NCBI RefSeq assembly: GCF_014931565.1
Contig: NZ_CP063353.1
Span: 2,418,001 to 2,482,000 of the forward strand
DNA length: 64,000 nt
Direction of reading: 5' to 3'
From: Clostridium sp. 'deep sea'
Lineage (GTDB): Bacteria > Bacillota > UBA994 > PWPR01
Shown here piece after piece: positions 17,030 through 22,321 of the stretch; position 1 is the stretch's first letter, and the number at the start of each line of letters is the position of its first letter. Below the pieces are notes generated by a model that was not told where the DNA came from, did no database searches, and saw only the letters and a program-made list of their open reading frames with translations. Position numbers and translations under genes: made by a program.

Positions 17030-17056
17030 AAAAAGAGGCCGGAAAAGTCCGGCCTC
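17030..17056 (-). terminator. GC-rich hairpin between ung and the Hsp70-like unit
   Basis: A perfect 9-bp stem (GAGGCCGGA 17035-17043, TCCGGCCTC 17048-17056) with loop AAAG. The T-run follows on the minus strand (TTTTTGAT), so it mainly ends the leftward Hsp70-like transcript; it may also stall ung transcription. The 240 bases up to 17293 hold no gene, only a perfect ACAACAAT/ATTGTTGT hairpin near 17129-17147. Confidence 0.75.
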
Positions 17057-17293: not shown

Positions 17294-17968
17294 TCACTTA
17301 ACGTCTTTATCTGTAATTTTAGCATGTAGTCTTATTCTTATTTCATTTACATCTTTACCTAAACGTTCTGTTATATCTTTTAAGTGTTCAATACTACCAG
17401 AAATTCTTTCAATTGATACTAAACAACTCATTAAAAACTCATTTTCTACTTTATCAATTTTAGATTTTTGCTCACTTAAATGTGTAAGGTTAGTATTCAT
17501 TTTCATATTACTAACCTCTTTATCAGCATAGTTAATACTTTTTTCAATAACATCACAATCATTTATTATATCAATAATAATTTTTTCCATTAAATCTTCT
17601 TTTTGATTATTATTTATTTTTTTAATAACATCACTCATATAAATTTTATTGTTCAAACACTCTTTAAACTGAGGGCATTCAGATAAATGGCACCTGCACT
17701 CTACATAAAACTCATTATTTTCATCTACAACTAAGCCCCATGAATTTTTGTGTTTGCAATTGTCCAAGGTTACTCCTGCATGAGTCAATTCTGCTACCTG
17801 TAGATTATTTAAAGTTAAAGCAGAATTGCTTTTATTGTTAATTTTACTAGCTAAATATGCTAAAGCCTTTCTTCCCCTAACTTTTGAATGGAATTTTGTG
17901 TCGTTTAATAGCTCACTGGTGAGCAAACTAATATTACTGCACAGCTTCACATTTGATTTTCTCAACAC
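17294..17968 (-). CDS. Cys-rich, partly coiled-coil hypothetical protein paired with the Hsp70-like gene
   Basis: A 224-residue soluble protein of unknown family. Around residues 70-106 there is a cysteine cluster with CxC-x4-C-x5-C spacing ('ECRCHLSECPQFKEC') preceded by 'DNCKHKNSWGLV', which could hold zinc or an iron-sulfur cluster. The C-terminal 100 residues are charged and helical with heptad character. Translation probably starts at a GTG with AGGTGA 6 bases upstream. It starts 18 bases after the Hsp70-like gene stops, with a shared terminator after it. The arrangement suggests a dedicated partner or client-binding factor for that ATPase; this is inference. Confidence 0.65.
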   Translation of the reverse strand: MLRKSNVKLCSNISLLTSELLNDTKFHSKVRGRKALAYLASKINNKSNSALTLNNLQVAELTHAGVTLDNCKHKNSWGLVVDENNEFYVECRCHLSECPQFKECLNNKIYMSDVIKKINNNQKEDLMEKIIIDIINDCDVIEKSINYADKEVSNMKMNTNLTHLSEQKSKIDKVENEFLMSCLVSIERISGSIEHLKDITERLGKDVNEIRIRLHAKITDKDVK

Positions 17969-17986
17969 CCTAAATCACCTACTATG

Positions 17987-19429
17987 TTAGTATTTTGGCA
18001 ACTCATACTTAAACTTTGGCATTATATATTGCCATTCTTTAGCATACTCATTTGTTTTACGATTACTACAAGCTCTTACATGTACAACATTGTTATTATC
18101 TGCCCATATATCTACAACAATCTTTTCCATAAAAAATCCATATACAGGAACCTTCATATATCCTATTTGTTTGCCATCACTATCACAAAAAATAAAATAA
18201 GCATCATCACAATCTTCTACTACTGCAAAATTTAGTTCATCTTCAATAAAGTCTAAATCTTTATTAGGGCTTACCAATTCAAATAAAGTACCCTCAGAAA
18301 GCATTACGTTTAATGAGTTGGATGTATAATATCTACCATGTAAAAGTGCTAATTTTGCAGCTCCCATACTAGCCTTATACAGATAGTTATTATTGCTTTT
18401 AACCTCTTTATTAAACTTGTTTATAAACTGTTGTTTAATATATGGTGCATTAAAGTTACCTCCTACAAACTCAATACAGCTAATATCATTTAGGGTTATT
18501 TCATAACCTTTTAGAGTATCTTCAACAAAGTTTATAGCCTTTTTCACTACTGGACAAATTACCTGTTGTAATTCCTCGTCTGTTATATGTCTTCTTAAAC
18601 CTATTGTATTTCCGTAGTTTGTTATACTAAGCTCTGATATAGCTCTTTTAACCAACTGTCTTTTTATTTTTTCACATTTATTAATTAGTTTTCTTCGACA
18701 GTTATTATCTATGTCTACAAAAATTTTATTTGCATTTCCATTGAGAATTAAATCATTATGAATAAATTTAGCCAAACTTTCATTAATATTATCCCCACCT
18801 ATATTTAACTGTGATTGAAATACTTCTTGTAAAAAGCCGCCTTCATTTTTTATTAACATCAAACTTAATGATGTTGCGCCCCAGTCTATAACCAAAATAT
18901 TTTTTAACTCTTTTATATTATTAAAATTACTATAGATTGAAGCTATACACTCATGTACCATATGAATTATTTCTATTTTTGCTTTTTTGGCTGCTTCTCT
19001 AAGATTTTTTCTAGCCAAAGGTGTAAAGTCATTGTCTATAGCAAATACTGCTTTTTCAATAAGCACCCCTTGAGTTCTATTTTTTACTTTTTCCTTTAGC
19101 TCATTTAATAAAAATGCAGTAATATCACTTGCTGTGTACTCAAAACTACCTACCTTTACAGGTTTGGAATCACATAAAATCTTTTTTATAGAAGAAACCA
19201 CATAATAATCACTGTTTAAATCATCCCAATCATTTAGTACATCTCTACCACATAACATTTGTCCAGAGCTTTTTTCAATAACTACATGAGTTGCAAATGT
19301 AGTTGCTTGATTATCTTTAAAATTTAATACTTTATCTGTCTCGTTATTATAGCTAGAGCAAGTTATCGAACTATAACCTATATTAATACCAAAAACATAT
19401 TGTCCCTTATTTCTATTTATGCTATCCAT
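17987..19429 (-). CDS. Divergent Hsp70/DnaK-like ATPase
   Basis: About 480 residues aligning with the Hsp70 nucleotide-binding fold over roughly residues 10-390: 'VFGINIGYSSITCS' at the phosphate-1 loop (DnaK: GIDLGTTNS), 'HECIASIYSNF' in place of EPTAAALAYG, 'ILVIDWGATSLSLML' at phosphate 2, and 'FVGGNFNAPYI' at the adenosine loop. The rest resembles a short beta-type substrate domain, and the helical lid and acidic tail are missing. The altered phosphate loops mean ATP turnover cannot be assumed. Start: a TTG at 19447 overlaps the GAGAGGA site, so the ATG at 19429 is chosen. It is the first gene of a two-gene unit. Confidence 0.78.
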   Translation of the reverse strand: MDSINRNKGQYVFGINIGYSSITCSSYNNETDKVLNFKDNQATTFATHVVIEKSSGQMLCGRDVLNDWDDLNSDYYVVSSIKKILCDSKPVKVGSFEYTASDITAFLLNELKEKVKNRTQGVLIEKAVFAIDNDFTPLARKNLREAAKKAKIEIIHMVHECIASIYSNFNNIKELKNILVIDWGATSLSLMLIKNEGGFLQEVFQSQLNIGGDNINESLAKFIHNDLILNGNANKIFVDIDNNCRRKLINKCEKIKRQLVKRAISELSITNYGNTIGLRRHITDEELQQVICPVVKKAINFVEDTLKGYEITLNDISCIEFVGGNFNAPYIKQQFINKFNKEVKSNNNYLYKASMGAAKLALLHGRYYTSNSLNVMLSEGTLFELVSPNKDLDFIEDELNFAVVEDCDDAYFIFCDSDGKQIGYMKVPVYGFFMEKIVVDIWADNNNVVHVRACSNRKTNEYAKEWQYIMPKFKYELPKY

Positions 19430-20451: not shown

Positions 20452-22321
20452 ATCGAGTAGGAGGCTAATCATTAGTTGATTAGCCGACCTCTCACACCAC
20501 CGGACGTACGGATCCGTATCACGGCGGTTCAATAACCAAGCCTACTAATGTAGTAAGAATGCAGTGATAAGAGACCAGCTTTTGCTAGTCTCTTATTTGT
20601 TATCGTTTTATGGAGTATGGGACTTTTAGCTGTCCGCCATGCTCCCTTTCTAGTATTTCCATACTCGTATGCTTTCTGAGGAGGACACCCTAGTTTTGTT
20701 AAGTTCCGAATTTTAGTCCTTATCCTTTTCCATCTCCGCCAATATATCATTCTTATTCTTCGCCTTATCCATTGGTCTAGCTCCATTAAGAATTGCTTCA
20801 TATTTGCAAGTATGAAATAATTAATCCAACCTTGGCACATTCTTTTCAGTCTGATATACAAAGTTTTGATGTTTTGTACTTTTCGACTTGTTAACAGTGC
20901 CTTGATTTTCTCTTTGAGTTTCTTCTTGCTTTTCTGGTGCACTCTAAATTGCACACCATTAGCAGATATGTAAAAGGAGTACCCTAGAAATTTGGTCTTT
21001 CAGGGTCGACTAATTTTGCTTTTATCTCGATTGACGACAAGCTTTAATTCCTTTTCAAGAAATTTGGTTACATTCGTTAAGGTACGCTCTGCTGCTTTTC
21101 TACTTTTTACATAGATTGAACAGTCATCAGCGTATCTAACGAACTTATGCCCTCTTCTCTCTAGTTCCTTATCTAACTTGTCAAGCATTATATTGCTAAG
21201 CAATGGCGATAATGGACCTCCTTGTGGAACCCCTTGTCGAGTCTTTTCATATTTACCATCTATTACAACTCCTGATAGAAGATATTTCCTGATGAGTCTT
21301 AAAACTCTGCTATCTTCTATCTCTAGGTACATTTGATGCATAAGTTTGTTATGGTTGACTGTGTCAAAGTATGATGCTAAGTCTATATCTACTATCCACG
21401 TGTAACCTGCTTCTATATACCGTTTGCATTGTTGAAGTGCATCATGGGCACTACGCTCTGGTCTAAATCCATAGCTGTATTCTGAAAATTTCTCCTCAAA
21501 TATTGGCGATAGCACTTGATTAATGGCTTGTTGAATTACTCGGTCTATGACCGTTGGTATTCCTAGTTTTCTAGTCTTACCATTGTCTTTTGGTATTTCC
21601 ACTCTTCTTACTGGACTAGGCTTGTACGTCACTTCTAGCAGCTCTTGGGTGAGGTTTTCTAAGTACCTGAGATACCATTCTGAGAACTCAGAAACTTTCA
21701 TACCGTCTACCCCATGGCTTCCATTATTACTTTTAACATGACCATAAGCTTTCATCATATTCGGATACGATACCACTTCTTCCATCAGTTGATTTGTGTT
21801 TTGCTTTTGCTCTTGTTGAATCCCTTGAGCACTAACTGCTCTCTCATTACTTTTAAGTTCCACTTTATCCTCCTGAGATAAGCCCTCTTTCGAGGTTGTC
21901 TAGTTTTTTTTTCGTACTCTTAGGTCTCATAGTTTACAAAACTGTTATTGTTCAGCCCTTCCTGAAAAAAAAATAATTTCAGTACTATGACTTCTGCTGA
22001 CTTCTCTCATCCCCTCTGCTCATCACTGAGTAGCGTTTGGTTTAGGATGCGAGACCTCCCTGGGTAAGTCCACACTCTTTCTTTCCATATATCTGCCACA
22101 TTTACTAACACACCCTTCGGTTAGTACGGATTTTGTTTTGATTAGCAAACTCATCCAGTTTGCATTAGCCTCATGTGATTCGTGTTCCTCAGACCAGAAA
22201 TTTGCCTCCAACTTCCTTCAGATTCCTCCTCGCGAAGGACACCCTTGTTTTCAGCTAACGGCTATACTAACTTCACCGCTCGGGACTTTCACCCTATAGA
22301 TTGTGAATATGCCAGGCGCAC
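20452..22321 (-). mobile_element. Group II intron, full length (~1.87 kb)
   Basis: The minus strand begins with GTGCGCC at 22321, the conserved group II 5' end, followed by about 450 bases of structured RNA, the maturase frame, then domain V (starting GAACCGCCGT at 20530 and including GGTGGTGTGAGAGG) and domain VI (GGCTAATC...GATTAGCC stem). It ends CTACTCGAT at 20452, giving the usual AY end. The insertion lies 6 bases after a perfect hairpin that follows the flavoenzyme gene, a site type favoured by class C introns, but I leave the class open. It sits between genes and interrupts none. Confidence 0.88.
20529..21863 (-). pseudogene. ltrA: Group II intron reverse transcriptase/maturase with in-frame TGA
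   Basis: Reverse transcriptase blocks are clear: 'RKLGIPTVIDRVIQQAI', 'FSEYSYGFRPERSAHDAL', 'IVDIDLASYFDTVNH', 'RQGVPQGGPLSPLL' and the catalytic 'FVRYADDCSIYV'. After 'KSKISRP' a TGA (21000-21002) stops the frame. The same frame then continues with 'KTKFLGYSFYISANG', the maturase X domain and the GIIM domain ('GWINYFIL', 'RRIRMIYWRRWKRIRT'), ending at 20529. Relatives usually have Trp here (RPWKxKFLG), so TGG has become TGA. TGA is a normal stop in this genome (for example in the CvpA-like gene). A GTG start with AGGAGG upstream is intact. Confidence 0.85.

Follow-up and report, generated by a model that had tools for sequence, protein, structure and literature searches.

The window analysed here is a stretch of 64,000 nucleotides from Clostridium sp. 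'deep sea' (contig NZ_CP063353.1, positions 2,418,001 to 2,482,000). It contains a pair of adjacent genes, one for an Hsp70-like protein and one for a cysteine-rich partner, with the features listed below (positions are those of the window; evidence in brackets).

17987..19429, minus strand: Hsp70-like gene, ATG start, 480 aa (Pfam HSP70, profile match to DnaK, residue table).
17294..17968, minus strand: partner gene, GTG start, 224 aa, with an N-terminal Cys domain (about residues 1–107) and a helical/coiled tail.
17645..17758, minus strand: Cys cluster of the partner, a putative metal or Fe-S site (Cys positions in eight N-domains).
17297..17500, minus strand: conserved coiled tail of the partner (about residues 157–224), specific to the window genus (identity to the relative G001).
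17035..17056, minus strand: terminator-like stem, 9 pairs then TTTTTG, which could end the pair's transcript (consensus scan only).

The Hsp70-like gene is upstream and separated from the partner gene by 18 bases, an operon-like arrangement in which purine-rich, RBS-like stretches (GAGAGGA, AGGTGA) precede both starts. The reading frames, coordinates and gap were given exactly in an earlier note on this DNA, made from the letters alone. Its proposal of a shared terminator is plausible, the stem at 17056–17035 being the sole one on that strand past the pair, but termination would not be immediate, as the stem lies ~240 bases past the partner stop, just beyond ung. The pair is flanked by ung and a gene for a CAAX-type protease. 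A group II intron maturase/reverse transcriptase, split in two ORFs (RVT_1 and GIIM; 20529–21863, minus strand), lies between the protease gene and an oxidoreductase operon and is missing there in the two relatives G001 and G002 described below. As the earlier note had also held, the pair is apart from chaperone operons: it lies at 2.44 Mb, whereas the genome's remaining Hsp70 genes map to 0.36 and 3.50 Mb, and DnaK, the second Hsp70 and the MreB-type genes are all located away from it. The main dnaK, which is behind grpE (L003:1492-3225, C1 about 362456), carries an in-frame TAG at codon 121 within a locally scrambled stretch (VPA*RFQPQRQATKDAG, compared with VPAYFNDSQRQATKDAG in DnaK), reflecting either an assembly error or a strain lesion.

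The Hsp70-like protein matched Pfam HSP70 with an E of 1.4e-24 and DnaK over its full length in a profile comparison (hhalign probability 100, E 1.8e-43). It consists of an actin-type nucleotide-binding domain (about residues 10–365) and a beta domain (about residues 366–480), the latter collinear within the full-length match and weak when aligned alone (P 0.008). The profile of the whole group ends with the SBD-beta of DnaK and the protein stops after its beta domain, indicating that the helical lid is missing, as had been proposed for the window protein. Nor does the ~11-residue hydrophobic interdomain linker of DnaK (VLLLD type) have a counterpart anywhere in the group. An AF2 model from a two-sequence alignment was weak (mean pLDDT 52.7), with no helix past residue 378, and in a Foldseek search with this model DnaK ranked first; structure models were used for fold assignment only, being too weak beyond that. 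In Hsp70 proteins, the classical chaperone cycle depends on the lid and the interdomain linker for its allostery. Since the whole group is without either, such a cycle is unlikely even in the members with canonical phosphate loops.

The altered loops noticed earlier, NIGYSSITCS and DWGATS, are both present. Where DnaK has DLGTTNS and DLGGGT, the window protein has GINIGYSSI and DWGATS, including the changes D8N and T11Y. The equivalents of K70, E171 and D194 are retained in the residue table, so some nucleotide chemistry may remain.

The partner contains C71 and the cluster C91-x-C93-x4-C98-x5-C104, the latter exactly the CxC-x4-C-x5-C pattern first seen in the letters. C71 lies 19 residues ahead of the cluster, in line with a rule common to eight N-domains, x19–24 to the first following ligand and then (C-x-)C-x4-C-x5-C. 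Judged by the sequence, either zinc or an iron-sulphur centre could be bound there. In database comparisons, nothing in Pfam or NCBIfam scored above the curated cut-off, there was no match in PADLOC or PHROGs, and neither a J-domain nor GrpE was matched in Pfam. The earlier note's statement that the partner belongs to no known family is nevertheless incomplete: a profile search matched its first ~115 residues to the N-terminus of UvrD-type helicases, and its N-terminal domain is the Cys domain of such helicases in DISARM-linked clusters. The helicase part, with its Walker A, is absent from the 224-aa window partner. The helices of the partner are predicted at low confidence (AF2, two-sequence alignment, mean pLDDT 44.2).

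Within the family of the window, the pair was adjacent between ung and the CAAX-type protease gene in all three genomes examined (the window genome G000, G001 and G002), with open frames free of stops in each. Identity to the window is 49% (Hsp70-like) and 45% (partner) in G001, and 21% and 30%, respectively, in G002, where the partner is shortened to 175 aa. Preservation of an intact, adjacent pair at only 21–49% (Hsp70-like) and 30–45% (partner) identity argues that the pairing is more than chance. Between the window and G001, the Hsp70-like gene differs by 0.406/0.269/0.581 at the three codon positions and the partner gene by 0.424/0.281/0.614, in both cases a pattern reflecting purifying selection at the protein level. 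The pair is real and under selection. Its genes are more diverged (41–48% identity) than most of their neighbours (58–85%), the flanking protease gene being similar at 49%. Conservation is uneven along both proteins. In the Hsp70-like protein, identity to G001 is best in the C-terminal domain (61%), compared with 40% around phosphate loop 1 and, at worst, 33% in the adenosine region, and in the partner it is 58% in the coiled tail, 45% in the Cys domain and 35% in the middle. At the ATP site, G001 has K70R and DWGASS, and G002, the most changed of the family, has D8N, K70Y, E171P, DITTEN and PPLAV. No partner homologue was found in 12 further genomes of the same class.

Searching 398 genomes of the phylum with the partner profile located the N-terminal domain in five more genomes (G092, G046, G174, G120 and G089), in each case as the start of a longer protein; one further weak match (G300) covered the tail region only, in an unrelated protein. 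The proteins of G092 (791 aa) and G046 (798 aa) continue into a UvrD helicase (E 3.8e-25 and 1.3e-21) with Walker A present, and an 824-aa Cys-UvrD protein with the Walker A sequence GPGTGKT is encoded on L103, a contig from a viral collection. The proteins of G174 (563 aa) and G120 (541 aa) retain the Cys domain and a C-terminal part and lack the first motor domain together with its Walker A. The G089 contig ends after 191 aa of the Cys-domain gene. Behind the motor-less gene of G174 (L076:3194-11211) are a PLD-family gene, a 1,019-aa protein without matches and a full UvrD helicase encoded on its own, which may supply the missing motor in trans.

Directly upstream of the Cys-domain gene in each of these genomes is an Hsp70-like ORF of 476–493 aa, in which GIDFGTTN(S/T), the K70 equivalent, the E171 motif and DWGGGT are all intact. 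ATP-site residues are thus intact in the helicase-linked and helicase-derived members and altered in the window family. The reciprocal search of the same 398 genomes with the Hsp70-like profile (E ≤ 1e-60) returned exactly the Cys-domain genomes together with the window and G001; G002 was too diverged to reach this threshold. The searches from either gene return the same genomes, and the two genes are adjacent in all nine loci found. Co-occurrence of the genes in other genomes, which the earlier note had suggested as a check, is accordingly observed, and of its proposed dedicated chaperone/partner module the module part holds; the chaperone part does not fit the missing lid and linker and the altered ATP site. 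In a tree, eight Hsp70-like proteins group apart from DnaK, HscC-like and other Hsp70 proteins with support of 100/100. The base of their clade is unresolved, and G002, G120 and the window have long branches.

Other readings were considered and rejected. Of the two results that the earlier note had named as refuting, an unpaired partner in relatives and a decayed dnaK copy, neither was seen; the second is ruled out by the separate clade and the lack of stops. The Hsp70-type ORFs of G029 and G026 are not members: in the tree they join the DnaK side, and neither lies next to a Cys-domain gene. A recent mobile-element gene was rejected because neither the Cys domain nor the 1,030-aa operon protein described below has relatives in plasmid or phage records; the plasmid matches to the Hsp70-like query were ordinary Hsp70s, under 29% identical. 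In a wider contig scan, most matches were Hsp70s of Desulfuromonadales/Geobacter without a Cys-domain neighbour.

The genes around the helicase-bearing forms are those of defence loci. The gene order in G092 is a DrmMII methyltransferase, a 1,016-aa protein, a 448-aa coiled-coil protein, Hsp70-like, Cys-UvrD, DrmA (PADLOC, E 4e-248), DrmB (NCBIfam DrmB_fam, 6e-154) and NERD/UvrD. G046 has a similar methyltransferase-like ORF, a 1,040-aa protein, a 450-aa coiled-coil protein, Hsp70-like, Cys-UvrD and DrmA, after which the contig ends. L103 has AbiEi, AbiEii, a 449-aa coiled-coil protein, Hsp70-like, Cys-UvrD, DrmA (1.7e-235) and a partial ORF that is DrmB-like by sequence and too short for a PADLOC match. 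The coiled-coil, Hsp70-like and Cys-UvrD genes thus directly precede DrmA in three loci, with DrmB alongside in two. In G174 the pair is followed by the PLD-family protein, which is weakly like DrmC. The position of AbiEi/AbiEii immediately before the coiled-coil/Hsp70-like/Cys-UvrD/DrmA block on L103, an IMG/VR contig (L103:3013-13416), suggests that phage-like or other mobile elements can carry the block.

Three genomes encode, ahead of the coiled-coil gene, a protein of about 1,030 aa (L079:2680-5802, L078:12605-15655 and L077:2885-5506), 36–37% conserved and without a match in Pfam, NCBIfam or PADLOC, a putative component of a defence-type operon. The coiled-coil protein was considered as a GrpE-type exchange factor and rejected, having no Pfam GrpE match. 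Derivation of the partner's tail from this coiled-coil protein, or from the helicase, is likewise unsupported, no relation having been found. DrmA and a homologue of the ~1,030-aa protein are both absent from G000, G001 and G002.

The window pair shares its descent with the defence-associated Hsp70-like/Cys-UvrD pair, and the helicase is absent from the window family. On balance we take the window pair to be related to a defence-associated Hsp70/helicase module and to have been reduced and domesticated, with a probably weak- or non-hydrolysing Hsp70-fold scaffold that would be bound to its Cys/coil partner. In the full module, to which the neighbourhood of three loci would assign a defence role, the lidless Hsp70-like ATPase presumably binds and gates the SF1 UvrD helicase through the Cys domain, acting as an ATP-dependent switch for it. 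In the window family the helicase would be gone, with only the N-terminal Cys domain left and now joined to a coiled tail. Each species of this family has its own set of changes in the phosphate loops and catalytic residues of the Hsp70-like protein, whose C-terminal beta domain is its best-conserved part. Most likely, the two proteins would form a stable Hsp70-fold/Cys-coil complex, the Hsp70 part serving as a scaffold or switch with slow or no hydrolysis. The beta domain would hold the partner, and the partner's coiled tail may present the complex to some target. We consider it about an even call that the Hsp70-like/Cys-UvrD combination is an undescribed ATP-switch module of DISARM-type clusters which was domesticated, in one family, into a helicase-free pseudo-Hsp70 complex.

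The direction of change could also have been the reverse, the two-gene pair being an ancestral housekeeping regulator whose Cys domain was later fused to a UvrD helicase in defence clusters. The synteny is fixed in the window family (3/3 genomes) and occurrence elsewhere is sporadic (5 of ~395 other genomes; 1 of 63 in the class of G174), as expected from such an origin, and the unresolved basal branching of the Hsp70-like tree is compatible with it. However, it is the helicase-linked proteins whose ATP-site motifs match DnaK and the window-family motifs that are derived, the motor-less forms point to ongoing loss of helicase parts, and the pair is absent from the 12 other sampled genomes of the class. 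The derived ATP site and the motor-less intermediates together favour loss of the helicase over gain, and we regard the ancestral housekeeping pair as rather unlikely.

Still less probable is a client-specific chaperone that actively hydrolyses ATP and has in the partner a cochaperone akin to a J-protein or an exchange factor. The full-length Hsp70 fold and the retained K70, E171 and D194 equivalents would suit such a chaperone, and the zinc-type Cys cluster may recall cochaperones. It is opposed by the lack of lid and linker across the group, by the substitutions at the ATP site (D8N, T11Y and the changed GGGT loop in the window, K70R in G001, E171P in G002), and by the failure of the partner to match a J-domain or GrpE in Pfam. 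A decaying, functionless remnant of a defence module heading for loss is very improbable: G002, with its strongly altered ATP site (PPLAV, DITTEN), 175-aa partner and very long Hsp70-like branch, resembles one, but the frames are open in 3/3 genomes, the codon pattern is that of purifying selection, and the C-terminal domain and coiled tail are strongly conserved.

If the window pair is a reduced module, it makes a concrete candidate for the conversion of a defence component into a resident chromosomal gene pair. The series from full helicase through motor-less helicase to Cys domain plus coil would be a natural reduction series, in which the surfaces of the Hsp70-like protein used for ATP switching could be told apart by experiment from those that bind the partner.

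Compared with known systems, the window protein shares with Hsp70/DnaK (Pfam PF00012) the nucleotide-binding domain, and the full-length alignment continues through its beta domain, weakly matched when taken alone, as far as the end of SBD-beta, but its group differs in having no lid, no linker and a separate clade, and its family in having changed phosphate loops. The tie to DISARM is that DrmA directly follows the full form of the pair in three loci, accompanied by DrmB in two; the difference is that the window genome and its two family members are without DrmA and the pair is no named DISARM component in PADLOC. The link between an Hsp70 fold and a UvrD helicase in DISARM-type loci is a combination absent from profile libraries and searchable papers; our literature search of open-access main texts, which is weak evidence of absence, found no description of it.

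The CnuD proteins of CoCoNuT defence operons are lineage-specific and Hsp70-like, with an NBD and an SBD; their Walker A-like motifs are degenerate, very weak hydrolysis is predicted for them, and they are linked to McrB/McrC-type proteins and HEAT-like repeats (PMC11090510). Common to CnuD and the group described here are the Hsp70-like build, the link to defence operons in the full form and, in the window family, degenerate motifs; the partner differs, being a Cys domain connected with a UvrD-type helicase, and the window pair's neighbours are ung and a CAAX-type protease gene, with no McrB/McrC. A second viral-collection contig (L104:333-7920) has a 644-aa Hsp70-type gene behind a restriction-enzyme-like and a McrC-like gene (by eye), and may be a CoCoNuT-like Hsp70 locus. 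Among PADLOC models, GajB of Gabija gives the best score for the helicase part of the full module (E 5e-19 to 6e-25). ARMADA Type II, too, has a GajB-like helicase, which is beside a YprA-type helicase (PMC12458937). The term 'Hsp' does not occur in the main text on ARMADA, and ArmD has an N-terminal RelE-like domain and no Cys domain (PMC12458937), whereas the helicase of the module described here begins with the Cys domain.
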